NCBI GenBank assembly: GCA_916048095.2 | Contig: OU696576.1 | Span: 4,569,664 to 4,633,663 of the forward strand | Reading direction: 5' to 3' | DNA from: Sacculina carcini | Lineage: Eukaryota; Arthropoda; Thecostraca; Sacculinidae | DNA length: 64,000 nucleotides | Shown here: one piece after another, positions 14,399 through 58,803 of the stretch | Position numbering within the stretch: position 1 is the first letter of the stretch | Layout: the number at the start of each line of letters is the position of its first letter | Notes under the pieces: model-generated | The model's database searches: none | Told to the model about the DNA's origin: nothing | What the model saw: only the letters and a program-made list of their open reading frames with translations | Made by a program: the position numbers and the translations under genes

Positions 14399-14410
14399 GC
14401 CGAAATAGCT
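14399..14410 (-). promoter_or_regulatory. Putative primer-binding site complementary to the 5' end of tRNA-Phe
   Basis: Minus-strand AGCTATTTCGGC directly after the LTR end CTACA. It is identical to the sites in elements A and B and in TRIM copy 2. It complements nucleotides 1-12 of animal tRNA-Phe (GCCGAAATAGCT). Confidence 0.65.
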
Positions 14411-15893: not shown

Positions 15894-16243
15894 TGTAGAC
15901 GAAACACACAACCAAAATGTATTTGCAGACAGGCGGGTGTGGGCAGTGATTCCCCACGCGCGCCTGCAAGACGTCAAGGCACGACCATGCCTGGAACACG
16001 ACTCACACCGTGGCATACAGGAGCACACACACACACGCACAGGCCTCACACCCACCGCAACAACCAATCAGCGGCGAGCCGGTCACTCGCTATCCGCCGC
16101 GGGAGCACGATCACTATGATCACTTCACAGCGTGAAACTCATACACACATACCTATAAACACAGTAAGCCACACAGACTCTGGCACAATAACACGCTCAC
16201 TTACAATCTCTCACTCTCTCGCAACGTACACAATCACAAAACA
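15894..16243 (-). repeat. 3' LTR of TRIM copy 2
   Basis: Shares long blocks with 16850-17247, including a CCAATCAGCGGCGAGCCGG segment with a CCAAT box. Starts TGTAGACG on the plus strand. Confidence 0.8.
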
Positions 16244-16837: not shown

Positions 16838-16849
16838 GCCGAAATAGCT
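16838..16849 (-). promoter_or_regulatory. Putative primer-binding site complementary to the 5' end of tRNA-Phe
   Basis: Minus-strand AGCTATTTCGGC immediately after the 5' LTR end (CTCTACA). Same 12 bases and same position as in elements A and B and TRIM copy 1. Confidence 0.68.
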
Positions 16850-17247
16850 TGTAGAGGAAATACACACATAAAATGTATTTAAAGACAGGCGCACGTGAGC
16901 ATCACTGCCGCACGCGCGCCCACAAGACGTCACGACACGACCATGCTTAGAACACGACTCCAACACGAATCACTCAGGCTCACACCGTAATATACGGGAA
17001 CACACACAGGGCACACACACACACACGTACAGGCCTCACACCCACCGCAACAACCAATCAGCGGCGAGCCGGTCACTCGCGCGCCGCCGCGGGGCATGAA
17101 CACTTCACAGCGTGACACTCATACACACATACAAACACATACCTATAAACACAGTAAACCACACACAATCAGGCAAACTAACACGCGCACACACAATCTA
17201 TCTCACTCTCTCTCTCTCTCTATGGCAACGTACACAATCACACAACA
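16850..17247 (-). repeat. 5' LTR of TRIM copy 2
   Basis: Longer than its partner because of CA- and CT-rich simple-sequence expansions. On the minus strand it begins TGTTGTGTG and ends CTCTACA. Confidence 0.8.
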
Positions 17248-27956: not shown

Positions 27957-28267
27957 TGTAGTTGTATTGCAGAACAGATGTTGAATGATGAACGAGGAAA
28001 TATATATATATATAACACAGTCACACAATCGCACAATAACCCACCGAGTAAATACACGCAACACTCATTATTCACACCGCAGGAAAAGAGTACAAAACGC
28101 CAAGTACAACGCACTCTTCACACCGCCGTGCACTGTAACTCAACGCTTCCGCGCACCGTTCACCCTTACACCATGTACGCCCGGTCTCGACTCTTCCATG
28201 AGACTCAACGCGTCATCGAACCCCCTTTACACTCCCCGTAATTCCCCAGTTACATCGTCACCAAGAC
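27957..28267 (-). repeat. 3' LTR of element C (start missing)
   Basis: Shares a 240-bp block with 31471-31713 (CCACCGAGTAAATACACGC to CGTCACCAAGAC). On the minus strand it ends CAACTACA, followed by the TSD. Confidence 0.75.
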
Positions 28268-31200
28268 ATTGGACATTGGACATTGGACGCCGGACATTGA
28301 ACCAATACACAGCTTCTTGAATGGTACATTGCTTGCGAGCAGCGATTGTTATCACCGAACGATAACATCTCTCAACTATGCCGTTGCCGCATGGTGCATG
28401 AGCACATAGGTAGTGGATTCTCACCCCCAACTGGTCGCGAATTGCCGAAACTCTGCTTCTGAACGCAGTGTCGTCATCGAGCAAAATTTCACGTGGGGCC
28501 GACCTCTCAAGAAACAGCGATTCAAGTAATGCCACCACAACATCACTTGTCTGCCCACGAACACGTTTCCAAATAGTGAACTTAGACGGTCCACAATCGA
28601 TGATTGAGAGGTAATGACAACCACCGTAGTGCGTGAAATAAATGGCAATCCTGTCCCACACATCTTTGACGCTCAAGTTTCCATTCCTCCACTTCACTGG
28701 GGCGGGATCTACGGAGCTGCACACGTCGCATTTTCGCACTACTGCATATACCTCGCGTCGGGTGACACCTGGGTCGGCTTAGCGAGCAAAAAACAGTGAC
28801 ATCCTGACGCCTGGATGACCAGAATCGTGGTGGATATTACTGATCATTTGATTTCGATCTATTACAGGCGCACAAATCGGCGCGTCACGCAATTTAATTT
28901 CTTTCAACCAGGTCCGTGGCACCCGAGTGAGCGCATCTGCTGTGTTCTCTGCAGATTTAAAGAGGTTCACTTCAATTGACATGTCATATTCATGTGCAAG
29001 ATCGGCAATGAGGCTGATTCTGCGTCGAATGAGCATTTCCCCCGCGGCCTTTGTTTTGACGCGGATTTTCCAGACAGTGCATCTTTCACCCATTTATACA
29101 CCACTGCGGAGTACGTCATCGATTCGATACTTTTCATTTCCCACACAATGGCCAAATTGATGCCCTTGACCACCGCATCTAGTTCTGCCATATTAATATG
29201 CGTGGCGTCATCTCGTCTTAGCCATGCGGCATCTTCAATCACGTCTCCGTTTGATTCAAGACATGCTCCAATTGCCAGCGAGCTTGCGTTACCCAAAGGC
29301 GAGCAGTATACCCACTCATGTCCCAACGTCCATGTGATGGATCCTCTCGGCTGACTTTTCTGTCCAAATCAGCTACGACACTCTGCAGATGATCATCGTT
29401 GATTTCGTCATCCAAGCCACACGACACAGCGTTCGCCTTTCTCTTGACAAATGCAGAGGCCACTCTCAACCAACCACACGACGGATAATGAGCAATGAGT
29501 GCCCCACAATACGAAAACAATGACCTTTTTGTAAGCTTAGCTGGCAATTCCGGTAAATTGTTGTCTCTGGCCCAAGTGGGATGTCCACGCTCCCCCCAAA
29601 CACGCATACCCAATACTCTCGACCCATCTGCGACGACTTCGGGAGCTTTGCTGCTCAACCCATATCGTGCAAAGTGGTATTTGGTGCGTTCCGGTGAGAC
29701 AATATCGGCCTTGAACAAAATGTAATCCACATAGACTGATGCCACACTTTCTATCTCTCGGTCCATCTTTAGTGTTTATCTCTCGGTCGATCTTTTACCA
29801 CTGCCTTCATAACCATTAGCGCCACATTCAAACCAGATCAAAGTCTTGTGAGACAAAAGCACGTTCCGTCGAGCACAGCAGTTTGATACGGCCACAGTGA
29901 ATGGTCAACTCGAATCTGCAAGTAAGCCTTCTCAAGATCCAATATACCCACATTGACGCCCATACGACGCCATTCACGCAGCTTTTGGCCGCACGCGTCA
30001 GCATCCGCTGTGTGGCTTTCAATGCTTTTGTTCACTTCCCTGTAATCGAGTACCGGTCGGACCTTGCTATTATTTGGCTGCTCGACAGCCATCAACGGTA
30101 TGAGACCTTTTGCCGGACCGAACCTGGCTTCATCATACTCCACCAGCCAACCTTTGGCAATCCAATCACGCAATTCCGTTACGTACTGAGGTCGATTAGA
30201 CTTTTTCACGAAGTATTGTGATATCTGATTGTGTAACACTCAAGGCTCTACACCGTTGGCCCACTTCCAGCGAACTGTCCAAAAACCATCCATGCTGGAG
30301 AATGATAGTGAAAAATCCTTTTCACCGACGTGTATGTCGTCGTCAACATGCTTTTTATCATCAGACAGACGCAACGCAGTGTGAGTGTGCACCCGTTTAC
30401 CACGTGTCACATAATCATTCGCACATGGATTGAACGTGATATTACTGTCAGTAGATATACACATGCCCTTCAAAGACGTGATCGCATTCATCCCCAAAAC
30501 GAAATCGAACCCCAATGGCCTTGTCTGTGAAACAACAACTTCATGGCACGGTAGAACATCATCACCAATACTGAGTGTCACTGTTCCCGTTCCCAAGGTC
30601 GAGAATCACTCGCCGCTCATGGTAACGACGCTCACCTTTTTGCGCGCCCATTTTCTGCAGCAGGACACATGCACTATGCTCTAACTGCAGCATGTGTCGA
30701 CCAGCGCACGCCGCTCAACACCGTCGATGGTCACATTCACCATCGGTAGCGCCCTGGCTAGTTTTGTCTCGGAGAGGAGTCCGGCGCTGACGACGCCTCT
30801 CCGCTGTCGTTTCCCGACTTGCCATGACTGTCTCGGCCGTTTTTTTGTTGTACGTGTTTTTATCACAACTGCTGCGGTTGCGGTTGGAGCGACAATGGCG
30901 CTGTATATGACCAATGCCTCCGCAACAGAAACACTTGATTTCCCGCTGTGCTGAATGCTCTGCTACTGGTTCCTTGGCGGCCAGACACACTTCGTTGTGC
31001 TGGTTCTCCTAGAGCAGTATGCGAGCCCTAGCTGTCAGCTGTGGCAAATCCAGCGACTCAAGTCGAGAATTCGCACGTAACGTTCTGCCCACCTCTGCAG
31101 GCAAACCCGAGAGCCATATCAGGCACTCCACCAAACACTGAAGCCAATCTCTTGAGATCGGCCAAGTATACATCGGGCGTCTCGTTGGGGTGTAGAGTGC

Positions 31201-31460
31201 GGGCATGAAACCGCTCGTAGGCTGTGTATGGATCAATTCCAAATGCCGCTTGCCGGGCCAACTTCACTTTCTGCACGCATTTTCTGTCAGACATCGGTAG
31301 CTGCTGGTACACAGCAGAAGCACCGCCGGACAAACGCAGAGCAATGACGGTCTGCACGTCAGTCACGCCTCGAAGTTCACATACGAGTTCGAATCTGTCG
31401 AACCACTGTGATATTCTGCGCGTCCGATCCACTGAGCTCCGGAATTAGACGCACGTCCAT
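28268..31460 (-). pseudogene. Element C gag-pol remains
   Basis: Gag starts at 31460 (MDVRLIPELSG) and shifts frame within 20 codons. A CCHC knuckle reads CFCCGGIGHIQRHC (near 30925). The protease reads ALVDTCCS in place of DTG. The reverse transcriptase keeps VRPVLDYREVN and LDLEKAYLQI, then a deletion, and its active site reads YVDY, not YVDD. RNase H has HINMAELDAV but a damaged second Asp region. The integrase zinc motif is split. Its first catalytic Asp is Tyr (AIYFTHY), while LLDDDTAF and GIVERCYR remain. The C-terminus is deleted into the LTR. The enzymes are clearly dead, and lesions at three active sites show long neutral decay. Confidence 0.88.
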
Positions 31461-31470
31461 GCTGGTCCCT

Positions 31471-31959
31471 TGTTGATCACACAATATCCCACCGAGTAAA
31501 TACACGCAACACTCATTATTCACACCGCGGAAAAGAGTAAAAAACGACAAGTACAACGCACACTTCACACCGCCGTGCACTGTGACTCAACGCTTCCGCG
31601 CACCGTTCACCCTTACACCATGTACGCCCGGTCTCGACTCTTCCATGAGACTCAACGCGTCATCGAACCCCTTTACACTCCCCGTAATTCCCCAGTTACA
31701 TCGTCACCAAGACGGTACATTATACACGCACGCACGCACGCACGCACGCACGCACACATACACACCCACACATACACATAACTGCACATACGGCGTCTGC
31801 CATATGCATAACGGCGTCTGCCAGCGCGACCAGTGCTGCGCGTGTACACAGACACACATACATACAAACTTTGAATCGCATGTAAGCAAAAGTTCAGTTT
31901 AACGTAACATCTTGCACATCACTCGCTCTGGTGCCTCGGATCAACAATATGGAATTACA
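31471..31959 (-). repeat. 5' LTR of element C (end missing)
   Basis: On the minus strand it begins TGTAATTCCATATTG next to the TSD. The end and the expected primer site are lost in a deletion joining it to the gag start. It includes a (CGCA)n run at 31726-31753. Confidence 0.7.
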
Positions 31960-38100: not shown

Positions 38101-38122
38101 TCAAATCACGTCGGGGTCACCA
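38101..38122 (-). promoter_or_regulatory. Primer-binding site for tRNA-Trp
   Basis: The plus strand here equals the last 22 bases of animal tRNA-Trp including CCA (TCAAATCACG at the left, GGGGTCACCA at the right). Two bases separate it from the 5' LTR. A second, partial ATCACGTCGGGATCA lies just upstream (38091-38105). Confidence 0.92.
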
Positions 38123-39540: not shown

Positions 39541-39696
39541 AGCTGAAACTCTACGTTGGTGAGTCATTGGTGAGTCATATCTATTCTAGGTAACCAACGA
39601 TAAATCCACCTCAAAACAATAATATTGTGTTTCACTCTACGATTCAGGCGGTGAATCTAGACATGTTTTGCTAGAAAATGCTCTACTTGTGCCATC

Positions 39697-39949
39697 TGTA
39701 GTATATATATATATAATTATTTTTACATATTGCTTATCATGTTAATTGCATTGATGTTAATTGCTTGTTAATTTATAATTGTGAGAGTTCCTGAGCGGCC
39801 ATGGCAACGCAACGGAAAAATGTAACACGGGGAGATTTTTTGCAGGGAGGGAGGAGAATAGTGAGGGGAACGGAAGGAGTGTTTTACGTGTATTGGAGTT
39901 TGTTGAAAGTGTTGTTTCATTGTTAACTGTTTTATAATAAAAAACCACA
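39697..39949 (+). repeat. 5' LTR of element A
   Basis: 253 bp. Matches 43555-43836 apart from about 29 bp of TA repeat and a few substitutions (GAGCGGCC versus GAGTTGCC, GGAGAAT versus GGATAAT). Confidence 0.93.
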
Positions 39950-39961
39950 AGCTATTTCGGC
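39950..39961 (+). promoter_or_regulatory. Putative primer-binding site complementary to the 5' end of tRNA-Phe
   Basis: AGCTATTTCGGC occupies the whole interval between the LTR end and the gag ATG at 39962, so no room remains for a standard 18-base site. Confidence 0.72.
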
Positions 39962-40702
39962 ATGGCAAAAATTTCCCAAGATATGATAAAGCCATTCAAT
40001 GGAGACGGAGATGTTGTCGCATGGATAAAAAAAGTGCGACTTGTTGCCAAGCTCCAGAAAGTGGATGATGTGGCGAGTTTGCTCCCACTGTACTTGGAAG
40101 GCTCTGCGCTTGCAACATATTTAGAAACGGAGGAGAATGATCAGGAAGATGCTGACAGAATCGAAGAAAAACTAAAGGAAGTATTTTCAGACAGTGCCTT
40201 CATTGCGTATCATAAATTGACCAGAATGAGATGGACAGGTGAGCCCATTGATGTGTTTTCAAATGAAATAAGGCGGTTGGCTGGACTGTCAGGATTTGTT
40301 GGAGAAGGTCTTGATAATATTGTAAAGTTATCATTCGTGAACGGATTTCCTGATGACATCAGCAAGCAGTTGCAGCAGATCAACAATGTGGGGCGTGTTC
40401 CATTGGGCGAAGTGCTTAGCAGGGCCAGAGTACTTGCTGTGAGAGGAGAGAGCTCCGTGAACGCAGTGGCGGCGAACAACACGCTGACTGACAGAAGAAA
40501 AACTGCAGTGCGTCGGAACTCATTCGAAGACAAATGCGTCGTACGCGGAGAGCCTCATATAGCGCGAAGTGGCAGCCATAGAAAATCAGTGACGTGTTTT
40601 AGATGTGGCAAGGAAGGCCACATTGCAGTTCAGTGCACCGCTGATCCGGGAAACGAGCAAAGGGGAACTGGTGCGCCAGCAGTCACCCCTTTGACTCACT
40701 GA
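39962..40702 (+). CDS. Element A gag
   Basis: 246 codons. The N-terminal capsid-like part includes ISQDMIKPFNGDGDVVAW, LLPLYLEGSALATYL and FVNGFPDDISKQL. One CCHC zinc knuckle, CFRCGKEGHIAVQC, lies near residue 218 and would bind element RNA. The start is the ATG directly after the 12-base primer motif, giving almost no leader. The stop TGA overlaps the pol ATG (TGATG at 40700-40704), and pol lies in the -1 frame. This allows either termination-reinitiation or -1 frameshifting. No internal stop is seen. Confidence 0.88.
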   Translation: MAKISQDMIKPFNGDGDVVAWIKKVRLVAKLQKVDDVASLLPLYLEGSALATYLETEENDQEDADRIEEKLKEVFSDSAFIAYHKLTRMRWTGEPIDVFSNEIRRLAGLSGFVGEGLDNIVKLSFVNGFPDDISKQLQQINNVGRVPLGEVLSRARVLAVRGESSVNAVAANNTLTDRRKTAVRRNSFEDKCVVRGEPHIARSGSHRKSVTCFRCGKEGHIAVQCTADPGNEQRGTGAPAVTPLTH

Positions 40703-43535
40703 TGGCGCAGCCTGGCAGACTGCCTCTGGTCAATGTTTTAGTTGCAGGCAGAAATGTTCGGGCATTAATGGATACCGGCTGTTCAACAGTTGTCGTGACG
40801 ACGAAGATTGTTAAGAATTATGAGGCAGGTGGTTTCATAAGTGCGTTTGACGGGAGGCAGGTGCAATGCCGAGGGAAGACCTGGGTCAACTTGACAGTGG
40901 AAGGCAGAAGCGTGAGAGCGCGTGCGATGGTAGTTGATAAGATATTGAACGACATAGATTGTGTATTAGGGATGGATGTGATTGATTGTCTTGGTGGTGT
41001 ATTTGTGACAAATAATGGTGTCAAATTTGGGGATTGCAGTTGTGTTGCTGTGGGTGCTGAGACACCAGTACTAGGCAATATAACATACCACAGTAAGAAA
41101 AATGAGAGTACACAATTGAGTATCAACGATAAAGATTTTTTCGCGTCGTTCGATGGAGAAAAATGGGAGGTAGAATGGTTTGTGAAGGAAGACTCCCCAG
41201 TGTTAAATAACTCTATCGGCTGCTACAATCAAACAATAAAGTCAGAAACACGTCACGAGTTTGACACCGAAGTGCAACGTTGGGTAGCAGAAGGAATTCT
41301 GGTGCCGTGGACAGGCAACACAAAGTCGGGTGTATTACAGCTGCTTGCAGTGGTGCAACCGACGAAGAGAAAAGTTCGCCCAGTACTCGATTTTCGAGAA
41401 TTAAATGAATATGTGAGTAGTCATACGGGTGATGAATTCATCGATATATGTAATGAAAAATTGAGGAAATGGAGGTGCATCGATGGTCCTGCGTCTGTGG
41501 TAGATTTGAAGACGGCATATCTGCAAATTCACGTGTCAAAGAAATTATGGAAATATCAGTTGGTCAAATACCGCGGCAAAGTCTACACTCTGACGAGAAT
41601 GGGTTTTGGGTTATGTTCAGCCCCTAGAGTAATGACAAAAATTGTGCGAACGGTGCTGAAGCAGTCATATGTGATTGAGCGTGCTACCGACTCATACATC
41701 GACGATATTATCGTGAATGAGGCCATAATTTCAGCGAAGGCAGTGGTGCAACATCTACAGAAATATGGATTGGTGGCAAAACAGCCAGTGCCTATTGAGG
41801 AAGGTGCTGTGCTGGGCTTGAAAGTGTTCAGAAACAGAAATGGTGCACTTGTGTACAAAAGAGGAAATGAAGTTCCACAGTCGGTTGATAAATTAACAAA
41901 AAGGGAATTGTTCTCGTTGTGCGGAAAATTGGTAGGCCATTACCCGGTGGCGAGGTGGTTGAGACTGGCCTGCAGTTTCATTAAACGCAGAGCGCATGGC
42001 GGACATTGGGACAGACTGGTCGGTGACAATGTTGTGAAAATGATTCGAGAAGTCTTAGATAGAGTAAGGCGTGGTGACCCTGTAGGGGGTGTGTGGAATG
42101 TGCCAAAAACAAAGAAGGGGTGGTGTGGTGTGACGCTAGCAACTTGGCCGTTGGCGTGGCGCTGGAGATTGGTGGTCATATTGTTGAGGATGCAGCGTGG
42201 CAGCGAAAGGAGTCCGATGTTCACCACATCAATGTGGCTGAACTGGAAGGGGTATTGAAAGGATTGAATTTGGCTCTCAAGTGGAACTTGACCGATGTGG
42301 AAGTACGCACTGATTCAGCAACGGTATTGGGCTGGGTCAACGCAGCCTTAAATAAGGAGAGAAGAATCAAGACAAAAGGTGCAGCTGAGCTTCTGATAAA
42401 GCGACGGTTGGGTATACTGTGTGACTTGGTGGAGGAGCTCGAGCTGAAATTAAAGATTGTGCGAGTTCCCACTACGGTAAATAAAGCAGACGAGCTTACC
42501 CGCGTCAAGAAAGAATGGCTGGTAATGCCCGTAGAAAGTGAAGAAGAGAATCATTGCACCGCGTCGAGTTCTAGTGTATGTGCTATGACATCGGAAAGAC
42601 TCGCTGAACTCCATGAATTACATCATATGGGTGTGGATAGAACACTTTATTTAGCGCGACAAGAGGATCCAAGAGTGACACGAGACCAAACACAACGTGT
42701 TGTTCAATGCTGTGTTAGATGCCAATCAATCGATCCAGCACCAGTCCAACACGCATCCGGAAGCCTGAATGTGAGCAAGTCATGGTCAAGATTGGCCATT
42801 GACGTGACTCATTACCGCCAGCAAACATATCTGTCAATTGTGGACTGTGGTCCAGGTCGGTTCGCCATCTGGCGAGAGCTGCGTGCTGAGAACGCAGAGC
42901 TGGTGTGTGCCATTCTCGATGAGATATTCAGGGAAAGAGGTCCAGTTCTCGAGCTGCTCATGGACAATGGTATGGTGTTTAGATCAGAGCAAATGAAAAG
43001 ACTGATGGAAAGGTGGAAGATACAACCCTTTTTCAGAGCTGCATATCGCCCAAGTGGTAACGGCATTGTAGAGCGTCACCATCGTACCATCAAAGCTTTG
43101 GCAGAGAGAGCTCAAGTGACACCGTTGTCGGCAGTGTTTTGGTACAATATGACGCCACGCGAGGGCTTGACTCACAATTCGGTACCACATAAACACATCC
43201 ATGCATACGAGTGGAGAAATCCATCGTTAGAAATGCCGCCGAGACGCGAGTCCACTCAGTCTTTCATCAGCGTAGGGGATGAAGTTTGGGTGAAGCCCCC
43301 CGTTCCTAAATGTACAACGCAGTGGACGCGCGGTAGAGTAACAGACATCAATTCGCCAAACAACATTTCTGTAGACGGGATGCCGCGACATATATTGGAT
43401 GTGCGGCCGGCAAGAGACGCTCATGACGAACGCCACGTTCCTACAGATGCAGAGCACGACGATGTGGAATTGCCTCGGCGCTCAACAAGACAACGGAAGA
43501 CCCCGGCGTGGCTAGATGATTATGTTACTGATTGA
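40702..43535 (+). pseudogene. Element A pol, split by a single frameshift
   Basis: First frame 40702-42258: protease ALMDTGCSTVVV (residue ~26), then reverse transcriptase with RKVRPVLDFRELN, VVDLKTAYLQIHVS, MGFGLCSAP and the active site SYIDDIIVN. Near 42105-42118, in an A/G run, one base is missing. The protein continues in the frame 42093-43535: RNase H (VVWCDASNLAVGV, HHINVAELEGVL, RTDSATVLGW), the integrase zinc motif (HELHHMGVDRT, then CCVRCQSID), the catalytic core AIDVTHY, LLMDNGMVF and GIVERHHR (last Asp-Glu spacing 35), and the C-terminal VGDEVWVKPPVP module. All catalytic residues remain, so one indel is the only clear lesion. Confidence 0.9.
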
Positions 43536-43554
43536 TCTTCAGATCAAGGGGGCA

Positions 43555-43558
43555 TGTA

Positions 43559-43603
<45 letters not shown>

Positions 43604-43836
43604 ATTATTTTTACATATTGCTTATCATGTTAATTGCATTGATGTTAATTGCTTGTTAATTTATAATTGTGAGAGTTCCTGAGTTGCCATGGCAACGCAA
43701 CGGAAAAATGTAACACGGGGAGATTTTTTGCAGGGAGGGAGGATAATAGTGAGGGGAACGGAAGGAGTGTTTTACGTGTATTGGAGTTTGTTGAAAGTGT
43801 TGTTTCATTGTTAACTGTTTTATAATAAAAACCACA
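43555..43836 (+). repeat. 3' LTR of element A
   Basis: 282 bp including an expanded (TA)n run at about 43558-43602. Followed by the TSD CCATC. Confidence 0.93.
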
Positions 43837-43869
43837 CCATCATTTTCTCAGAACATTTTTTCTGTACAG

Positions 43870-44084: not shown

Positions 44085-44397
44085 TGTGGCGTTGTTGTCG
44101 AGTGGCGTGCGGTGTGACGTCATAGCGGTTCACTTGAGTCGACTGGTGCGAGGTATGACGTCGCACGTTGCTGCGCGCTGATTGGCCGCGATTTGAGCCT
44201 AGTGCCGGAGGCATGTATCAGCTGGCGTGTGTGAAGCTGGCTTTGCGAGCGGTCGAGCGTCATTCGGTTGGTGGCCTGTGCGTTGTAAGCATCGTTGCCG
44301 TGTGTTCGAGAGATATTCGCTGTGTGGACGTATTCTCGTCGTGTGCGCGGGTTTTTCCTGCGCGAGAGGTAAGAGGGCTTTGCCCGATTACATTACA
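44085..44397 (+). repeat. 5' LTR of element B
   Basis: 313 bp, TGTGGCG...ATTACA. A perfect CRE-type TGACGTCA (44115-44122), a second TGACGTCG near 44157 and an inverted CCAAT box (GATTGGCC) are likely promoter elements. One substitution relative to the 3' LTR (GGCATG versus GGCGTG). Confidence 0.94.
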
Positions 44398-44409
44398 AGC
44401 TATTTCGGC
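44398..44409 (+). promoter_or_regulatory. Putative primer-binding site complementary to the 5' end of tRNA-Phe
   Basis: AGCTATTTCGGC directly after the LTR and three bases before the gag ATG (44413). Identical to the motif in element A, although the LTRs of A and B share no obvious similarity. Confidence 0.72.
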
Positions 44410-44412
44410 TTT

Positions 44413-45465
44413 ATGGCTGAGGCCGTTGGCGGGGGCAAACGTGAGTTTGTCGAAGGGGGTTCCGGTAGCGAATCCGATGACTTCGGTCAGGAGGGTCAGA
44501 GACCCGAGCAGCGGGCCGCAGGACCCGTGGTAGATGTTGGCCAGTTGGCCAACATCTTAATGCAGGCCCGAGGGCCGATCCTTGACAGGATAGGGCGGGC
44601 TCTACCGCGTTTCGGTGGTGACGTCACCCTTGACGTCACTGAGTGGCTGGCCGACTTTGAGCGGCTATGCCGTGTCCAGCAGGTCGACCCTTGCGAAATG
44701 GTCGACCATATGCTGGATGGGAGCGCGCGCCGGCTTTACCGGCGCATGCTCGTGGGCGACGCCTCACAGTGGGCCGTGGTGAAAGCCACGCTGGTCGCCG
44801 AGTTTGGCGTGCCTCGCCAAGAGGCGTGGAGGCGTTTCTCGACTCGTCAGCTTCGATCTGGCGAGTCAGTGGACGCCTTTGTGGACGACCTAGAGCGTCT
44901 AGGTCGCCGTGTAGGGTTAACACCCGAGAGCTTGGCGTTCCGCGTCAAATTTTATGAGGGCCTACCCGACTCAATCTATGAATGGGCTATGGCGAGAGAG
45001 GGGGCGTATAACTCCGAGTTCGACAGCGTGCTGTCGGCGGTGCGCGCCAGAATTGGTGCACGTAGGGCTGCTGCAGCTAGAAACCGCCCATCTGGGGTGG
45101 TGGCTGCATCTAGGCAGCGAGTCAGCTACGCCCAAGTAGCGAGCAGCTCGAGGGACCGCTCTCCTGGTCCTCAAGCGTCGGACGAGCGAGACGGCTCTGT
45201 GTCTCGGTGGGCGGGCCGTCCGGAGCGCTCTTCTGCGCGCCGGACGCTCCGCTGCTACCGATGTGGCGGCGACCATCTGGTCCGCGAGTGCCCGGGAGCG
45301 CAATGCTACCGGTGTGGCAAGCACGGGCATTTCGCTCGTGATTGCGAGGAGCCGGCGTCGACGTCGACGTCACGCCGCTCGCGAGCTCGGACGAGCTCGC
45401 ATTTTCATGCGGAGGGCGCAGCACGGGGCGCAGCGTCCTCCGACATGGAAGTCGACCGCAATTAA
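44413..45465 (+). CDS. Element B gag
   Basis: 350 codons from the ATG after the primer motif. The longer open frame upstream (from 44227) lies in the LTR and is not part of gag. The central capsid-like region includes VTEWLADFERLCRVQ, MLDGSARRLYRRML and FKFYEGLPDSIYEW-like text. Two CCHC zinc knuckles follow near residues 281 and 300 (CYRCGGDHLVRECP and CYRCGKHGHFARDC). An Arg/Ser-rich tail overlaps pol by about 120 bases. The role is packaging of element RNA into particles. The reading is uninterrupted. Confidence 0.92.
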   Translation: MAEAVGGGKREFVEGGSGSESDDFGQEGQRPEQRAAGPVVDVGQLANILMQARGPILDRIGRALPRFGGDVTLDVTEWLADFERLCRVQQVDPCEMVDHMLDGSARRLYRRMLVGDASQWAVVKATLVAEFGVPRQEAWRRFSTRQLRSGESVDAFVDDLERLGRRVGLTPESLAFRVKFYEGLPDSIYEWAMAREGAYNSEFDSVLSAVRARIGARRAAAARNRPSGVVAASRQRVSYAQVASSSRDRSPGPQASDERDGSVSRWAGRPERSSARRTLRCYRCGGDHLVRECPGAQCYRCGKHGHFARDCEEPASTSTSRRSRARTSSHFHAEGAARGAASSDMEVDRN

Positions 45466-48400
45466 GCGGCGGCCCCTGTAAAGGGGCGACGGTGAGTCCC
45501 TGCTCTGCGCGTGGACTCATCAGCGGAGCACATTTGGTGCGTCGGGCCCGCCGGGCGATTCGAGGGACGGCCGGTGTATTGACTTCGCGTCGTATGCCGG
45601 TCGTTGTAGCTGTTCTCAACGGTCGTTGCTCCCGGTGTCTGGTTGACACGGGAAGTGAGTGCACAATTGTTAGTGCACGGGTTGTGGCGGGTTCACTTCC
45701 CCGTCGGGGACGACCGTTGATTACAGCGGATGGTAGGACTTCTCATGAGACGAAGTCCTGTGACGTAGTAATAGGGCTGCAGGGACACTGTTTTAGAGTT
45801 CCCGGGCTCGTAGTCAAGGGATTAGAAAACCTTGGGGTGGAGTGCCTCCTGGGCAACGATGTTATCGACCATATGGGAGGCGTGACAGTGAAAAGGGGTG
45901 TTGACTCTAAATACACCGTTGAGTGGGGGAAACCTTACCCCGAGGGGTGCTGTCGTGCACCGGCGCGTAAGAGTGTGTCTAATAAATCGACGAAGTGTGT
46001 GAGGTTTATGTTGGCAGGTTCCACGGATAGTCCGCAGCCGCTGGAAGTTGTCGACAAGGACTTCGTAGCGTCATTCGCTGAGGGCCGATGGACGGTGAGC
46101 TGGCGGTGGTCTGACAAAGAGCCGGACCAGCTACAGAACAGCGTGGCGGAGTACAGATGTACGAGAGCTCCCGGAGTGAGCGAGAGGTACAATGCCGAGA
46201 TCCGGAGCTGGATCGAGAAAGGCTGGTTAATCACATGGCACGGCCCAGTAAAGGGGGTCATCCCGCTGTTGGCCGTCGTACAGCCGACGAAAGACAAAGT
46301 TCGTCCTGTTATGGATTACCGTGAGCTGAACGGCTTTGTCGAGTGTCACACAGGAGATGACGGTGTGTCAGTGTGTGCTGACAAGATCAGAGAGTGGAGG
46401 CAATGGCAGGGGGAGATCAAGGTAGTTGATCTCAAGTCGGCGTACCTGCAGATTCACGTGAGCCGAGATCTGTGGAAGTATCAGGTCGTGAGGTATAATG
46501 ATGTGCATTATGCGTTGACGCGGCTGGGCTTCGGCCTGTCATGTGCACCAAGAATAATGACGCTGATTCTGCGAAAGGTCCTGTCATTGGACGAGAAGGT
46601 GCGAAAGGCGACAGATCATTTTGTCGACGATATCATCGTGAGGACGTCCGATGTGAGCGTGCAGCAGCTTCGGGAGCACCTGCGAAGGTATGGCTTTGAG
46701 ACTAAGGAGCCGGAGGGCCTAGATGGGGGTCGATTATTGGGAATTGCTCTGAGGAAGGGACCCGATGGGTGGTTGAATATGTCGAGAGGGACAGCTCTTC
46801 GTGACGCTGCACCCGAATTGACAGGGCTGACCAAGCGTGGGTTGTTCTCCGTATGTGGTCGTTTAGTCGGCCATTACCCCGTTGCCGGGTGGTTACGCCC
46901 CCATTGCAGTTTTTTGAAACGGTTGGGGTGTGGCGGGTCGTGGGATAACCCGGTGGAGAATGTTGTGTGTGTGCTTGTGTCTGAGCAGTTGCAGCGTGTT
47001 CAGAAGGCGGACCCGGTAAGGGGTGGATGGGACGTGAACGCAGCTGGAGACGTCACTGTATGGACTGACGCGAGCACGTTGGCGCTTGGCGTGGTGGTCG
47101 AGGTGGACGGCTGCATCGTTGAGGATGCTACTTGGCTCCGTAAGAAGACCGACGTTCTACACATCAATGTGTCCGAACTGGAGGCAGTCGGTCGTGGCAT
47201 CAATATGGCGATTTCGTGGGGGTTCAAGACGTTTACCGTCGCGACAGACTCGAGGACAGTGCTTAGTTGGATGGACAGCACTGTCGAGGGGCGCAACCGT
47301 GTCCGCACTAAAGGTTCTGCCGAGATGCTGGTGAAGCGCCGACTGGCGGTGATTAAGGAGACGATCGCCGAGCATGGCCTGACAGTTTCTCTCCGGTTTG
47401 TCTCGACTGTGGAGAATAAAGCTGATCAGATGACCAGGGTGGCCAAGAAGTGGCTTGTTCATCGTGACGCTGGTGAGGAGGAGGTGGCAATATCAGCAGC
47501 TATTGCTACGAAGAAGAGCATTAAGGACACCGTTTGGGCGGCTCATCTGCCCCATCATTTAGGTGTCGAGAGGACGCTGTACCTGGGTCAACAATTGCGG
47601 AGTGATTTGACGAGAGCCCATGTGAAGGCGGAGTTAGCTGGATGCGAGGCTTGTCAACGTATCGATCCAGCGGTGAGAGAGGAGAATCTCGTAGGGCAGG
47701 GTAGTCTGGCCGTGGACAGGGACTGGTATCGAGTGGCAGCGGACGTCACTCATTACGATGCCGGCGTTTACCTGTCGATGGTGGATTGTGGTTCATCACG
47801 TCTTGCCGTATGGCGCAGATTGCCGAATGAGACGGCGTTGTGCATTATAGCTCAGCTGCGGCAGATTGTGATTGAGCGTGGGCCGTTTGAGGAGCTGTTA
47901 CTGGACAACTCTACGGCATTCCGGTCGGCGGCGATGGAGCAGTTCGCCGACGAGTGGTGCATTTCTTTGCGATTCCGAGCCGCATACGCCCCGGGCGGTA
48001 ACGGGATCGTGGAGCGAAATCACCGTACGATCAAAAGGATCGCAGCGAGGGGACATATTTCCCCGGAGGAGGCGACGTTCTGGTACAACGTTACGCCGCG
48101 CAAAGAGACTCAGGTGAGCACTATTCCCTCGAGGTGTATTTTCAGATACGAGTGGCGTCTTCCATTTGAGACCGGCCGCAGGGACGCTGATGACCGGACA
48201 GCAGCGTTTGCCGTTGGTGACGAGGTGTGGGTGAAACCGCCGATCCCGTCATGTACAACGCCGTGGACCCTCGGGAAGGTGACCAGGGTCGTCTCACAGC
48301 ACGTTGTGTGCGTAGATGGCATGCCGCGCCATGTGCGCGACCTGCGCAAGCGTCGCTGTGCCGGCCATAGTGGAGCCATAGACGAGACCGGCACTCATGG

Positions 48401-48809
48401 CGACGTGGAACCGATCAGCGGCGGTTGGGATGTGGATGCGACCGGCAATCGCGGAGATGTGGAGCCACCCGGTGGAGCCACCCGGTGTAGCTTGGACCTG
48501 AGCGGTGATGGCGGACGGGACGAGGCGGCCGATGGTCCCGGCGGTGACAGAACACCTGACAGCCTGCCACCTGAGCGACTGGCTACTGGCGAGGGCGTGG
48601 ATGCGGACCGTGTGTCTGTGGAGCAGGAACCTGGTGAGCCCTCAGAGGACGTGAGTGTACATACTGCTCGAGAGAATGTCGGAGAGGGCGTCGCGGCTGA
48701 GAGAGTCGAGGATGAGGCTGCAGTCGAGCAGCCGAGGCGGTCAACGAGGAGACGTCGACCGCCGGCATGGTTAAACGAGTACGTGTGTCTATCCGATGAT
48801 GAAGTTTAA
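45342..48809 (+). CDS. Element B pol: protease, reverse transcriptase, RNase H, integrase
   Basis: An open frame of 1155 codons, -1 relative to gag, with a 124-bp overlap. Expression by -1 frameshifting is likely, so the ATG is only nominal. Protease CLVDTGSECTIV is near residue 100. The reverse transcriptase has DKVRPVMDYRELN, VVDLKSAYLQIHVS, LGFGLSCAP and the active site HFVDDIIV (residue ~426). RNase H has VWTDASTLALGV, HINVSELEAV, ATDSRTVLSW and ENKADQMTR. The integrase zinc motif is HLPHHLGVERT ... CEACQRID (737-770), with catalytic AADVTHY, LLLDNSTAF and GIVERNHR (DD35E). A C-terminal VGDEVWVKPPIPSCTTPW module and a basic end RRSTRRRRPPAW follow. Every catalytic residue is present. The integrase has no chromodomain that I can see. 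Confidence 0.94.
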   Translation: MRGAGVDVDVTPLASSDELAFSCGGRSTGRSVLRHGSRPQLSGGPCKGATVSPCSARGLISGAHLVRRARRAIRGTAGVLTSRRMPVVVAVLNGRCSRCLVDTGSECTIVSARVVAGSLPRRGRPLITADGRTSHETKSCDVVIGLQGHCFRVPGLVVKGLENLGVECLLGNDVIDHMGGVTVKRGVDSKYTVEWGKPYPEGCCRAPARKSVSNKSTKCVRFMLAGSTDSPQPLEVVDKDFVASFAEGRWTVSWRWSDKEPDQLQNSVAEYRCTRAPGVSERYNAEIRSWIEKGWLITWHGPVKGVIPLLAVVQPTKDKVRPVMDYRELNGFVECHTGDDGVSVCADKIREWRQWQGEIKVVDLKSAYLQIHVSRDLWKYQVVRYNDVHYALTRLGFGLSCAPRIMTLILRKVLSLDEKVRKATDHFVDDIIVRTSDVSVQQLREHLRRYGFETKEPEGLDGGRLLGIALRKGPDGWLNMSRGTALRDAAPELTGLTKRGLFSVCGRLVGHYPVAGWLRPHCSFLKRLGCGGSWDNPVENVVCVLVSEQLQRVQKADPVRGGWDVNAAGDVTVWTDASTLALGVVVEVDGCIVEDATWLRKKTDVLHINVSELEAVGRGINMAISWGFKTFTVATDSRTVLSWMDSTVEGRNRVRTKGSAEMLVKRRLAVIKETIAEHGLTVSLRFVSTVENKADQMTRVAKKWLVHRDAGEEEVAISAAIATKKSIKDTVWAAHLPHHLGVERTLYLGQQLRSDLTRAHVKAELAGCEACQRIDPAVREENLVGQGSLAVDRDWYRVAADVTHYDAGVYLSMVDCGSSRLAVWRRLPNETALCIIAQLRQIVIERGPFEELLLDNSTAFRSAAMEQFADEWCISLRFRAAYAPGGNGIVERNHRTIKRIAARGHISPEEATFWYNVTPRKETQVSTIPSRCIFRYEWRLPFETGRRDADDRTAAFAVGDEVWVKPPIPSCTTPWTLGKVTRVVSQHVVCVDGMPRHVRDLRKRRCAGHSGAIDETGTHGDVEPISGGWDVDATGNRGDVEPPGGATRCSLDLSGDGGRDEAADGPGGDRTPDSLPPERLATGEGVDADRVSVEQEPGEPSEDVSVHTARENVGEGVAAERVEDEAAVEQPRRSTRRRRPPAWLNEYVCLSDDEV

Positions 48810-48866
48810 CCGTGCGTGTTTGCAAGCGTGTTTGTTGTGAGCTTTCAGGTGAAAAGCTGGGGGAGA

Positions 48867-49179
48867 TGTGGCGTTGTTGTCGAGTGGCGTGCGGTGTGAC
48901 GTCATAGCGGTTCACTTGAGTCGACTGGTGCGAGGTATGACGTCGCACGTTGCTGCGCGCTGATTGGCCGCGATTTGAGCCTAGTGCCGGAGGCGTGTAT
49001 CAGCTGGCGTGTGTGAAGCTGGCTTTGCGAGCGGTCGAGCGTCATTCGGTTGGTGGCCTGTGCGTTGTAAGCATCGTTGCCGTGTGTTCGAGAGATATTC
49101 GCTGTGTGGACGTATTCTCGTCGTGTGCGCGGGTTTTTCCTGCGCGAGAGGTAAGAGGGCTTTGCCCGATTACATTACA
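48867..49179 (+). repeat. 3' LTR of element B
   Basis: 313 bp, identical to the 5' LTR except for one base. Starts after the purine tract at 48851-48866. Confidence 0.94.
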
Positions 49180-50661: not shown

Positions 50662-51284
50662 TCTATATATATAAAAGAGATCCTCTGTCTGTCTGTGTGT
50701 CTGTTTGTCTGTCCCACCCTCCTTGGTCCATTTTCCGCACGCTGGCACTCGGTAACCACTTGGTGTACCCGCCAACAATTTATACCATTACGTTGGAAAT
50801 GTTCTTGTCTACACGATAGGATAAATTTACAATTTTAAAAATAAAACCAAGAAAAGTTATCGCGGTGAAAAGACAAAATGAACCCTGAAAAATGCGAAAA
50901 TTTTGGTCAATATTCCTGCATCTACTCCTCATAAACCAGAAATGGTACAGTCATACAAATTATACCACTGTGTAGAAAATATTCTGTTCTACTCGGTAGG
51001 TTATAATTCATATCCAAAAATTAAATATAAAATATGTAAAAATGACAAAATTTCAGTCTACATTCAAAAATATTTTTAACTCGACGCGTCCGATCTTCTA
51101 TACTTTTTTCTCTATTTTTCGACAACTAATTATGACACGTCTAAATCAATTATATCATCATACTGGAAATTTTGTCATCTACAAAACAGTATTAATTTTA
51201 ATTTTCCAAAGTGTATTAAGAAAAAGTTGCGGCGGTGTGAAGTCAGAATGACAAAGTCAAAAAGGCAAAATTAGCACTGAAAAA

Positions 51285-52480
51285 CGTGAACATTATGGTC
51301 AATATTCCGCCATCTATTCTTCATAAACCAGGAATGGTACAGCTATAAAAATTATACTATTGTGTAGAAAATTTTGTGTTCTACAAGAAACGCGATAATT
51401 TATACACACAAATGATACAAAAAACGTGTAAATTGGGCGAAATTCTCAAATACATCCAAAATTACACTTGATCACCGGGCGCCTAAATTAATTCATTTTT
51501 CTACCTATTTCTCAGGAACTATTTGTCACACATTAAAATAAAGTATATCATCGTGCTGGAAATTGTATTTTTTTAAAATGCGGTATAATTTTTAATTTTC
51601 CAAAGTGTATCTGAAGGAAGTTACGGCGGTGTAAAGTCAAAAGGACATATTGCCAATTTGACAGCTATTTTTCGCACTTGCGATTACACAGGAATATACT
51701 ACTGTGTAGAGAATTTTGTGTTCTACAAGAAAAGGTGTAATTTATACCCACAAATGATACAAAAAACGTGTAAAATTGGCAAAATTCTCAAATACATCCA
51801 AAATTACACTTGAACACCGGGTGACTACAATTTATTCATTTTTATACCCATTTCTCAGCAACTGTTTGTCACACCTTAAAATTAATTATACCATCGTGCT
51901 AGAAATTTTGTTTCCTACAGTACGGTATAATTATTAATTTTCCAAAGTGTATCTGAACGAAGTTACGACGGTGTAAGGTCAAAATGTCATGTTGCCAATT
52001 TGACAGCTATTATGCGTACTTGCGATTACACATGAATATACACTGATTAAATTTCACTGAAGTCCAATCACAATTTACGCACTTGCGATTACACAGGAAT
52101 ATACTACTGTGTAGAGAATTTTGTGTTCTACAAGATAAGCTATAATTTATACCCACAAATGATACAAAAAACGTGTAAAATTGGCAAAATTCTCAAATAC
52201 ATCCAAAATTACACTTGAACACCGGGCGACTAAAATTAATTCATTTTTCTACTATTTCTCAGTAACTATTTGTTACACATAAAAATAAATTATACCATCG
52301 TTCTAGAAATCTTGTCTTCTACAAAACGGTATAATTTGTAATTTTCCAAAGGGTATCTGAAGGAAGTTACGGCGGTGTAAAGTCAAAAGGACATATTGCC
52401 AATTTGACAGCTATTATGCGTACTTGCGATTACACAGGAATATACACCGATTAAATTTCACTGAAGCCCAATCACAATTA
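51285..52480 (+). repeat. 341/404-bp tandem repeat array in unit 1
   Basis: The landmark GGCGGTGTAAAGTCAAAA recurs at about 51625, 51967 and 52371 (offsets 342 and 404). The longer unit carries an extra 63-bp block with CACTGAAGTCCAATCAC. More diverged units extend left to 50770. Confidence 0.8.
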
Positions 52481-53925
52481 AGAATGCATCATATTATCTC
52501 CAAGCATGGATGGTGTGGTTTTATTGCGTACAGTTTAATTAATGATACACTCTACTGAATATAAAGGCTTTATTGTCCTCAATAACGTTCCGCACGACGG
52601 GCGGGTAAAATGCTATTGGGAACAAAGTAAACTACTGAATTTAACTGTGTAATTTAATTGGTTTAATTTCAAGTTGCATAAGCATAAGTTGCATAAGGAT
52701 ATGGGCTGCAATATCATGTAATGCCAACTTATGCTGTTTTAGCGGAAGCATTAACCTGGAATTATAGAGATGACAGAAGATTGCATTGTTTTGATAGTGT
52801 TGTGGAAAAACATGTTTTCTAAATTGAAACATAAATTTCACATTTAGACTTTTATATTAGCTATAACTTTCCTGTGGGTTTGTTTTTCTTTTTCAATTTG
52901 CACTAATTTTTTTATGAATTGAATATTAATTATATTTTATGAACTGTTCCGCACGACGGGCGAATTAAATGTATCTATAAAGAGTGGGTTTAAATGATAG
53001 CGAGGTATATGATATTTTGCTAGCAGTAAATATTCTAGCGATAAAAGTAGAATAGCTCTTAAGCAAATGATTTTGGAGAATGATGTGAACCTTTAAATAT
53101 ATTTTGCGATCTGATGATATATGTATTAGGAATAATACGTAGCAGAATATAGATTGCATAATATAATATCGGCTGTAATATCAAGGGCTGTATTATCGGT
53201 GTAATCCAAAAAATAACAACTGTATGAATATGATGCATTAGTGGAAGCATTAACCGGGAATTATGAGATAATATGATAATGGTGTATAATTATATCGCAT
53301 TATGCAACAAATGTGAATTTAGCTACCTTACAGTTTGGTACCGATACTATATTGGCGGGTTGAGAGAAAAGTATTGGTGGGCCGCGTGTTTGGGACCCCT
53401 GGGGTAGATAATCTCAGTCTTCTGATTACAAATTATGATCGCATCAGTATATTTTGTGATCACAAACTAATAAGTTAAATCACCTCAGACTAGGCTGAGA
53501 GCGGTCAAGATTGAATGGTTGGGTTGGGTTGGGTAGGTTTGACTCAGGTTATATTGGGTTTTAATGATAGCGGAAAATATATAAATTTTAACAATAAATA
53601 TTATAGCGGTAAAAGTGAAATGGTACTTAAGCAAATGATATTGGGGAATGATGTTAAGTAATAAATATAGTTTGGAAACATTCTGATGAAAAGATTTCAT
53701 CATCTTTCATTGTTTGTTTCGTGTTTGTGTTCTGAATTATACCACACGACGGGCAGATTTATATATCAGGCGGGTTGAGGGATAATATTTGTCAAAATAA
53801 GAACAAAAATATTCACATTTAGACTTTTCTATTGGTTAAGATATTTATAGGTTACATTTTTTGGTTTTCAATTTGTATTCATTATATTTTATGGATTTGA
53901 TATGAATTTTATTGTATGAATTGTT

Positions 53926-54551
53926 CCGCACGACGGGTGGGTTTAAAAAAGTGTTTTTAGATCATTTTTTCAAATGGTTCATTTAAGAAAGGTAATTTTT
54001 TTTTAAGTAAAAATGTTCCGCGGGCAGCAACTATAGACAATATAACGTTCAATTTCCCCTGTAGAATTAATCCATACACAAAACCAATGGATTTGACTTC
54101 AAATATGAATTTTATTGTATGAATTGTTCCGCACGACGGGCGGGTTTAAAAAAGTGTTTTTTAGTTCATTTTTTCAAATGGCTCATCTTAAAAAAAGGTA
54201 ATTTTTTTAAAATCAAAATGCTCCGCGTGCAGCAACTATAGACAATAGAACGTTCAATTTCCCCTGTAGAATTAATTCATACACAAAACCAATGGATTTG
54301 ACTTCAAATATGAATTTTATTGTATGAATTGTTCCGCACGAGGGGCGGGTTTAAAAAAAGTGTTTCCATTTTTTAGTTCATTTTCTCAAATGGTTCATTT
54401 AAAAAAAGGTATTTTTTATTATAAAAATGCTCCGCGGGCAGCAACTATAGACAATAGAACGTTCAATTTACCCTGTAGAATTAATCCATGCACAAAACCA
54501 ATGGATTTGACTTCAAGATCCAGAACGGATCGTGTTCGAGTTCTGAATTAT
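53926..54551 (+). repeat. About 204-bp tandem repeat, three units
   Basis: The landmark CCGCACGACGGGCGGGTTT begins at 53926, 54129 and 54334, then in changed form at 54552. Each unit carries GCAGCAACTATAGACAAT and CCAATGGATTTGACTTC. Confidence 0.82.
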
Positions 54552-54763
54552 TCAGCACGACGGACGGGTTTAAAAATGACTCAGGTGGGCTGAGGGGAAA
54601 TATTTTGTCGAAATAAAAATAATTAAACTTATAATTTTCAATTGATTAATATTTTTATGAGTGTACCCTAATTCATTTTTATTTTTCCATATTTTTGTAT
54701 GAATTGAATATGAATTTCATGTTATGAATTGCTCCGCACAACGGGCGGGTTTTAATGCTATAT

Positions 54764-54937
54764 GTATACATAAAGAAGAAATTATCTGTCTGTCTGTGTA
54801 TGTATGCTTGAATATGAGGTGACATAATTGCGCAGGTTCAATGGTATATCTATACATAAAGAAGAAATTATCTGTCTGTCTGTGTATGTATGCTTGAATA
54901 TGAGGTGACATAATTGCGCGGATTCAATGGTATAGAC
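54764..54937 (+). repeat. 87-bp tandem duplication with a Helitron-5'-like start
   Basis: Two copies (54764-54850, 54851-54937) of TATACATAAAGAAGAAATTA, CTGTCTGTCTG and TGAATATGAGGTGACATAA. It directly follows a GGGCGGGTTTTAATGCTA end. Confidence 0.82.
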
Positions 54938-55299
54938 CAGGGGCTTCAAACGCAAACGAAGGGATGGCTCATTTTTATAAAATAAAAATGTCCCGCGGGC
55001 AGCAATAAAACGTTCAATTTCACCGTATAGAATGAATTCATATACAAAACTAATGGATTTGACTTCAAGAACCAGAACGGATGGTGTTCGAGTTCTGAAT
55101 TATTCCTCACGTCGGGCGGGTTTAAATATGAGGCGGGCTGAGTGAAAATATTTTGACAAAATATAATGAAAAATAATGAAATTTAGACTTTTTAATTAAT
55201 TAAGGTCTTCATGAGTTTGCCTTATTTATTTTTAATTTGCAATATTTTTATGAATTGTTCCGCACAACGGGCGGGTTTTAATGCTAGTGCTGGTGACTA

Positions 55300-56640
55300 A
55301 AATTAATTCATTTTTCTACCTATTTCTCAAGAACTATTTGTTATACATAAAAATAAATTATACCATCGTGCTAGAAATTTTGTTTTCTACAATACGATAT
55401 AATTTTTAATTTTCCAAAGTGTATCTGAAGGAAGTTACGGCGGTGTAAAGTCAAAAGGACATATTGCCAATTTGACAGCTATTTTTCGCACTTGCGATTA
55501 CACAGGAATATACTACTGTGTAGAGAATTTTGTGTTCTACAAGAAAAGGTATAATTTATACCCACAAATTATACAAAAAACGTGTAAAATTGGCTAAATT
55601 CTCAAATACATCCAAAATTACACTTGAACACCGGGTGACTAAAATTAATACATTTCTCTACTATTTCTCAGTAACTATTTGTCACACATCAAATTTAATT
55701 ATACCATCGTGCTAGAAATTTTGTTTTCTACAATACGGTATAATTCTTAATTTTCCAAAGTGTATCTGAAGGAAGTTACGGCGGTGTAAAGTCAAAATGT
55801 CATGTTGCCAATTTGACAGCTATTATGCGTACTTGTGATTACACATGAATATACACTGATTTAATTTCACTGAAGTCCAATCACAATTTACGCACTTGCG
55901 ATTACACAGGAATATACTACTGTGTAGAGAATTTTGTGTTCTACAAGATAAGCTATAATTTATACCCACAAATGATACAAAAAACGTGTAAAATTGGCAA
56001 AATTCTCAAATACATCCAAAATTTCACTTGAACACCGGGCGACTAAAATTAATTCATTTTTCTACTATTTCTCAGTCTCTATTTCTTACATATAAAAATA
56101 AATTATACCATCGTGCTAGAAATATTGTTTTCTACAATACGGTATAATTTTTTATTTTCCTAAGGATATCTGAAGGAAGTTACGGCGGTGTAAATTCAAA
56201 AGGACATATTGCCAATTTGACAGCTATTATGCGCACTTGCGATTACACAGGAATATACTAATGTGTAGAGAATTTTGTGTTTTACAAGAAAAGGTATAAT
56301 TTATACCCACAAATTATACAAAAAACGTGTAAAATTGGCTAAATTCTCAAATACATCCAAAATTACACTTGAACACCTGGTGACTAAAATTTAGTCATTT
56401 TTCTACCCATTTCTCAGGAACTGTTTGTCATACATTAAAATTAATTATACCATCGTGCTAGAAATTTTGTTTTCTACAATACGGTATAATTCTTAATTTT
56501 CCAAAGTGTATCTGAAGGAGGTTACGGCGGTGTGAAGTCAAAGGGACATTTTGCCAATTTGACAGCTATTATGCGCACTTGCGATTACACAGGAATATAC
56601 ACCGATTAAATTTCACTGAAGCCCAATCACAATTAAGAAT
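55300..56640 (+). repeat. 341/404-bp tandem repeat array in unit 2
   Basis: Landmark GGCGGTGT at about 55439, 55780, 56184 and 56526 (offsets 341, 404, 342), the same alternation as in unit 1. Confidence 0.82.
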
Positions 56641-58269: not shown

Positions 58270-58560
58270 CCGCACGACGGGTGGGTTTAAAAAAAGTGTT
58301 TTTTATCATTTTTTCAAATGGTTCATTTAAAAAAGGTAATTTTTTAAAAATAAAAATGTTCCGCGGGCAGCAACTATAGACAATAGAACGTTCAATTTCC
58401 CCTGTAGAATTAATCCATACACAAAACCAATGGATTTGACTTCAAATATGAATTTTATTGTATGAATTGTTCCGCACGACGGGCGGGTGTAAAAAAAGTG
58501 TTTCCATTTTTTAGTTCATTTTTTCAAATGGTTCATTTGAAAAAAGGTATTTTTTTTAAA
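58270..58560 (+). repeat. About 203-bp repeat in unit 2
   Basis: CCGCACGACGGG(T/C)GGGT at 58270 and 58472, homologous to 53926-54551 but with fewer units. Confidence 0.75.
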
Positions 58561-58803
58561 TAAAAATGGTGTTCGAGTTTTGAATTATTCCTCACGTCGG
58601 GCGGGTTTAAATATGAGGCGGGTTGAGTGAAAATATTTTGTCAAAATAAAATTAAAAATAATGAAATTTAGACCTTTTAATTGATTAAGGTTTTCATGAC
58701 TTTGTCTTATTATTTTTAATTTGCAATTTTTTTATGAATTGCTCCGCACAACGGGCGGGTTTTAATGCTAGTCTATATATGTAAAAGAGATCCTCTGTCT
58801 GTG

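Follow-up and report, generated by a model that had tools for sequence, protein, structure and literature searches.

What is the function of a 12-nt motif that directly follows the 5' LTR of dissimilar retrotransposons and is complementary to the beginning, not the 3' end, of a tRNA? We analysed this question in a stretch of 64 kb from Sacculina carcini (the window) and in the host assembly, which comprises 264,436,087 bases in 43 contigs. The motif, AGCTATTTCGGC, is present in four exact copies in the window, in elements A and B on the plus strand and in two TRIM-like copies, T1 and T2, on the minus strand (Table 1), all of them where an earlier note on this DNA had located them. By an arithmetic estimate, about 0.008 exact copies are expected in 64 kb of random sequence on both strands. 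When up to two mismatches were allowed, the window contained 8 matches versus a shuffle mean of 3.12, and 2 of 100 shuffles reached 8; therefore, only exact matches were counted. The 14-mer CAAGCTATTTCGGC has 955 + 958 = 1,913 exact copies in the host assembly, where a uniform model predicts about 2 genome-wide, and the reversed pattern has 0 copies in the same 264 Mb. Thus, the motif is far more frequent than chance. At least 120 stretches with the 14-mer were also found in a viral contig collection. We think it likely that AGCTATTTCGGC is the primer binding site of a group of elements whose pol carries the domain DUF7047, and that it pairs with nt 1-12 of tRNA-Phe, the tRNA being cut after nt 12.

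Table 1. Features of the window discussed in the text (strand "." where none applies).
Feature	Positions	Strand	Basis
A target site duplication CCATC, left copy	39692..39696	.	sequence
A 5' LTR (TGT...CA)	39697..39949	+	LTR alignment; edge set by CCATC duplication
A putative primer binding site AGCTATTTCGGC	39950..39961	+	sequence and LTR edge
A gag ORF, CCHC zinc knuckle, ATG directly after the site	39962..40702	+	ORF and Pfam
A protease/RT/DUF7047 ORF; DUF7047 above Pfam cut-off, protease and RT below	40702..42258	+	
A RNase H and integrase ORF, overlapping, in another frame	42093..43535	+	
A polypurine tract AAGGGGG	43546..43552	+	sequence
A 3' LTR, TA run longer	43555..43836	+	alignment
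A target site duplication CCATC, right copy	43837..43841	.	
B 5' LTR	44085..44397	+	LTR alignment
B putative primer binding site AGCTATTTCGGC, the motif under study	44398..44409	+	
B gag, CCHC zinc knuckle, ATG 3 nt past the site	44413..45465	+	
B pol ORF with protease, RT, DUF7047, RNase H-like and integrase domains; DUF7047 alone passes the Pfam cut-off	45342..48809	+	
B 3' LTR	48867..49179	+	LTR alignment
TRIM-like T1 putative primer binding site	14399..14410	-	
TRIM-like T2 putative primer binding site	16838..16849	-	
T2 5' LTR, part matched to 3' LTR	16850..17212	-	alignment
T2 3' LTR, part matched	15894..16220	-	alignment
Element C (contrast): site TGGTGACCCCGACGTG, conventional-looking, at 2 nt from its LTR	38107..38122	-	
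Element D (counter-example): decayed, pol of the DUF7047 group, motif missing	28028..31713	-	

Element A extends over 39697-43836 and element B over 44085-49179, and their LTR pairs are 98% and 99.7% identical, respectively. Between its two LTRs, element A shows a TA run of unequal length and a few base differences. The LTR edge of A is fixed because CCATC is duplicated on both sides; no target site duplication was found for element B. Both A and B have the motif directly 3' of the 5' LTR, with no spacer, and six TRIM-like genomic copies whose two LTRs are visible also have the site immediately 3' of the LTR. The 5-bp target duplications of these six copies are exact in four, have one mismatch in one and are missing in one. 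Target duplications thus demonstrate the abutment without a spacer in element A and in four of the six TRIM-like copies. That the motif follows the 5' LTR, as claimed earlier, was thus borne out against the LTR edge with zero offset in A, B and the six copies. Both elements show the Ty3/gypsy-type order of protease, RT, RNase H and integrase, with two LTRs and a polypurine tract. They do not have the Ty1/copia order, in which integrase precedes RT, since their integrase follows both RT and RNase H. In both elements the Pfam cut-offs were passed by DUF7047 and the zinc knuckles and integrase and RVT_3 did so in A, while the RVT_1 and protease matches and the integrase of B were below them. The closest solved RTs by sequence are retroviral, with weak E-values (best 0.0022). 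The first ATG is located 0-3 nt after the site in A (39962), B (44413) and loci L006 and L015, so an annealed primer would adjoin the start codon.

The site is shared by many families. We examined 34 loci, namely the first 30 listed genomic places, all on contig C1, together with elements A and B and with T1 and T2 from the window. Of the 30 places on C1, 18 lie before gag/pol of the DUF7047 group, 11 are TRIM-like and one (L001) is neither. Nine coding families carry the site (A, B, F3, F6, F10, F15, F23, F28 and F29), and the gag-pol of all nine falls into a single group, for which Pfam DUF7047 is the marker; the families from F3 to F29 were judged from the site and the gag/pol match, both LTRs not being in view. 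The nine representatives have no mutual similarity in the 250 bp before the site. The bases right after the last C of the site also differ among the families, so that conservation stops at tRNA nt 1; on its opposite side the site is bounded by the LTR edge. The first ATG is found 0-17 nt 3' of the site in these families. Such a very short distance could point to a conserved signal before gag, for protein binding or translation, in place of a primer site, but TRIM-like copies without a gag or pol match in the next 1.5 kb carry the site at the LTR edge as well, and a signal of this kind would leave the identity to a tRNA end unexplained. We regard it as very improbable.

Conservation was read with search patterns in which the 12 site positions were left open; these reads favour young copies because the flanks had to match within one mismatch. 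The B family gave 33 pattern matches, consisting of 23 element copies and 10 chance matches (control 7). The site is exact in 21 of the 23 copies and reads AGCCATTTCGGC in the other 2, and it therefore has two forms, whereas the LTR tail adjoining it has five forms in the same copies. In the F6 family 68 of 68 sites are exact. Thirteen TRIM-like copies, from 165 matches, comprise 8 with the exact site and 5 with one change each. The earlier note had named a motif changed in most copies of active elements as an outcome that would speak against priming; most copies read of B, F6 and the TRIM-like group keep it intact.

The LTR ends of T1 and T2 resemble those of the six genomic TRIM-like copies with both LTRs visible. 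The 1.5 kb downstream of the site in the TRIM-like copies gave no match to gag or pol. Their LTR matches that of coding family F6 (85% over 99 nt). The earlier note described T1 and T2 as two TRIM-like elements and the LTRs of A, B and these elements as having no obvious similarity. On comparison, the LTRs of A, B and the TRIM-like copies are indeed unrelated, but T1 and T2 belong to one group, which shares LTR sequence with F6. The TRIM-like copies, being satellites of one family, were therefore rejected as independent evidence. We call them TRIM-like and not TRIMs because L005, with a span of about 1.47 kb and LTRs of about 0.39 kb, exceeds the size given for TRIMs in PMC6934838 (<1000 bp, with terminal repeats of 100-250 bp).

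The reverse complement of the site, GCCGAAATAGCT, is identical to nt 1-12 of human tRNA-Phe, for which the sequence given in PMC11706605 and a primer in PMC10505166 were used for comparison. Thus, the complementarity to tRNA-Phe nt 1-12 noted earlier holds for the human tRNA, but the host gene was not found in the assembly. The 25-mer of the tRNA-Phe 5' end has 0 matches with up to two mismatches in the host assembly. The sequence GCCGAAATAGCTC occurs at 15 genomic places, none of which was called a tRNA, and Rfam scans of candidate loci gave no match. A DNA query of the assembly with the whole tRNA-Phe returned two partial matches only and no gene. In total, searches by the 5' pattern, the anticodon pattern, the Rfam tRNA model and the whole tRNA yielded no host tRNA-Phe gene; this set was not exhaustive, as the tRNA model scored only 63 of 15,013 candidates and introns were disallowed in the tRNA calls. 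The same kind of query found five full genes each for tRNA-Lys and tRNA-Met, which counts against the tRNA-Phe reading. The tRNA-Phe gene may be absent from the assembly or hidden in it. Alternatively, another host RNA that ends in GCCGAAAUAGCU at its 3' end by chance could be the primer. This would agree with the lack of a tRNA-Phe gene among the search results and with 0 of 15 GCCGAAATAGCTC places being called tRNA. It would also mean that a conserved stretch starts at tRNA-Phe nt 1 and equals a 12-nt tRNA end by accident, and the peptides described below hint that elements from other sources have this site too; both points stand against such an RNA, which we consider unlikely.

If the 5' end of tRNA-Phe is the primer, priming would work as follows. 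The element RNA would pair with nt 1-12 of the host tRNA-Phe and not with its 3' CCA end, and the tRNA would be cut after nt 12, leaving a 12-nt primer with its 3'-OH at the LTR edge. RT would extend this primer into U5, and plus-strand DNA would later copy the 12 nt of the primer, so the site would end at tRNA nt 1. In LTR elements the 3' end of the primer sets the U5 edge. A site that directly abuts the LTR and pairs with nt 12 down to nt 1 of the tRNA would thus place the end of the primer at nt 12. The zero offset, the mostly exact sequence, the occurrence in nine families and the peptides in relatives support, at the level of sequence, that the site behaves as a primer binding site. Priming by a 5' fragment of tRNA-Phe, as proposed in the earlier note, therefore agrees with the position, conservation and breadth of the site and with its identity to the human tRNA, and from these we infer its use as a primer and the primer 3' end at nt 12. 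The best candidate for the nuclease is the RT/RNase H of the element itself, which would cut the annealed duplex by analogy with Tf1-type self-priming, whose primer is a short 5' piece of the element RNA; this is a guess that we put forward as possible rather than probable. In Tf1, RNase H makes the cut that frees the self-primer. A point against the proposal is that we know of no precedent for a 12-nt primer that ends inside the D stem.

Two other roles of the site bear on this mechanism. Intact tRNA-Phe could anneal by its 5' end as an aid to packaging or placement, with priming elsewhere or by another molecule. Copies of the tRNA-Phe 3' half in two element contexts (see below) suggest that whole tRNA-Phe or its 3' half can enter the particle, which would suit such an aid. 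However, the site adjoins the LTR edge, and in LTR elements this edge marks the 3' end of the primer; A and B leave no room there for another site, so this role is quite improbable. The other role is self-priming as in Tf1, in which the 5' end of the element RNA folds back on the site. It requires a primer of similar length, and the Tf1 self-primer is about 11-12 nt long. In a fold-back test that covered A and B, however, the longest LTR pairing run was 7 in each, compared with shuffle means of 7.9 and 8.3, and neither element has an opposite-strand match within two mismatches. Furthermore, the sequence before the site varies among the nine families while the site is constant. Because the LTRs of A and B contain no complement of the site beyond shuffles, Tf1-type self-priming is hardly credible and was rejected.

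Priming by the tRNA-Phe 5' end can also be compared with other elements of the window. The sites of A and B start with AGCTATTT and not with TGG, by which conventional sites pair with the CCA of a tRNA 3' end. Element C, in contrast, has a site that starts with TGG as for a tRNA 3' end. Conventional elements primed by a tRNA 3' end, such as C, share with the group studied here the LTRs, a site next to the 5' LTR, the polypurine tract and 5-bp duplications. Element D contains no motif within two mismatches in spite of its DUF7047 pol, and this counts against the primer reading. The LTRs of element D are about 240 bp long and 96.7% alike, without clear TG...CA edges.

The two partial matches to tRNA-Phe cover nt 38-72 (L219) and nt 38-67 (L220), and neither is a tRNA gene. 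L219 sits between inverted arms of a TRIM-like internal sequence, and L220 is joined to pol of the DUF7047 group. Both begin directly after tRNA-Phe position 37. We take the modified base at this position to be wybutosine, which presumably stops RT. According to PMC7456070, position 37 of tRNA-Phe is a modified base. The copies could have formed when the growing minus strand, whose end reads GCCGAAA, annealed to the 3' acceptor strand of the tRNA and was extended to base 37, and such an extension would need tRNA-Phe at the site. The assembly also has two copies of tRNA-Met fragments (nt 27-73) and one tRNA-Lys fragment (nt 22-73), whose starts at nt 27 and nt 22 look as if they had been copied from the 3' end to a modified base. 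As tRNA-Met and tRNA-Lys have left fragments too, the tRNA-Phe 3'-half copies are a hint only, and we rejected them as proof of priming.

Besides S. carcini, the pol group has relatives in other sources. Among the 120 of 313 pol matches listed, named sources are Watersipora subatra (a bryozoan), Nymphon striatum (a sea spider) and Argonauta hians (a cephalopod), and the 120 of 140 gag relatives listed include Acanthosepion pharaonis (a cuttlefish). A search with B gag gave 41 related proteins. Some deposited gag proteins extend upstream through the leader, and we scanned the first 120 residues of 281 related proteins for peptides compatible with the site or with any variant that differs from it by one base. 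Such a fit was found in 13 of the 281, in 9 shortly upstream of gag and in 4 inside gag, the latter being background. P0073 (KLFRQ) and P0193 (SYFG) fit the exact site; P0157, P0183 and P0217 (KLSRP) fit AGCTATCTCGGC; P0185, P0186 and P0194 (SYLG) fit AGCTATCTCGGC or two other one-base variants; and P0239 (KLFQP) fits AGCTATTTCAGC. A peptide fit is compatible with more than one underlying DNA sequence. P0227 and P0256 may have an upstream extension without such a peptide. These translated leaders suggest that the same site or a one-base variant is present in relatives from other sources. The fit to AGCTATCTCGGC of 6 of the 9 upstream peptides counts against tRNA-Phe, as it implies a mismatch to tRNA-Phe nt 6 unless the tRNA of that host differs; AGCTATCTCGGC possibly matches a tRNA that starts with GCCGAGATAGCT. 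A search for related loci through alignment A1 gave 3 matches in viral contigs and 17 in genome contigs, none of which is a relative.

Primers other than the 3' end of a whole tRNA have been described. A survey of plant LTR elements distinguishes three primer types, which are whole tRNAs, half tRNAs produced by a cut at the anticodon stem, and self primers (PMC6317226), and a primer from the 5' end of a tRNA fits none of them. The earlier note regarded copia as the known exception; this was too narrow, because Ty5 and several Copia lineages also use truncated tRNA, at the anticodon region. Copia, Ty5, Osser, Bryco and Bianca resemble the elements studied here in that a truncated tRNA replaces the 3' CCA end (PMC10886601, PMC6317226, PMC5371799). 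As described for the half-tRNA primer of copia (PMC5371799) and for anticodon-loop priming in Copia elements (PMC10886601), these systems pair with the anticodon region of tRNA-iMet, tRNA-Ile and others and are of Copia type. The present site does not pair with an anticodon region but complements nt 1-12 of human tRNA-Phe, and integrase lies after RNase H. In Tf1-type elements a 5' segment of the element RNA acts as the primer (PMC4600332), and Tf1/sushi elements are like the proposed system in using a short 5'-terminal RNA, freed by a cut, as a primer (PMC4600332, PMC6317226). Their piece comes from their own RNA, whereas the LTRs of A and B contain no complement; exchanging the own 5' end of Tf1 for a tRNA 5' end would give the present case. 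The TRIMs of bivalves are likewise non-autonomous LTR units of animals. PMC6934838 describes them as without a clear primer site and, in two species, with similarity to tRNA-Tyr right after the repeat; this similarity lies in the central part of the tRNA and not at its 3' end, and the authors leave the mechanism open. Searches of the open-licence PMC literature showed us no report of a primer site that pairs with a tRNA 5' end.

We regard priming by the 5' end of tRNA-Phe as a putative, apparently undescribed form of tRNA-primed LTR retrotransposition. A wider proposal, which we hold tentatively and at a little less than even confidence, is that of a fourth primer type. Its primer, nt 1-12 of tRNA-Phe, would be released after annealing by the RNase H of the element itself and would serve the whole clade in several animal phyla. 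The site would track the host tRNA (reading AGCTATCTCGGC if nt 6 is G), and the remaining nicked tRNA would stay in place and sometimes be copied from its 3' end to base 37. A primer from the 5' end of a tRNA would in any case require cleavage within the D stem and an RNA primer of only 12 nt, and it would newly account for tRNA-Phe 5' fragments in animals. Searches for primer sites by tRNA 3' ends or by TGG would miss this site.

The window also contains other repeats. Dense interspersed repeats occupy 50843-63658, with start-to-start spacings of about 341, 342 and 404 bp and up to 13 copies per family, and a head-to-tail pair of units, each about 1.88 kb long and 91% identical to one another, lies at 20992-24741.
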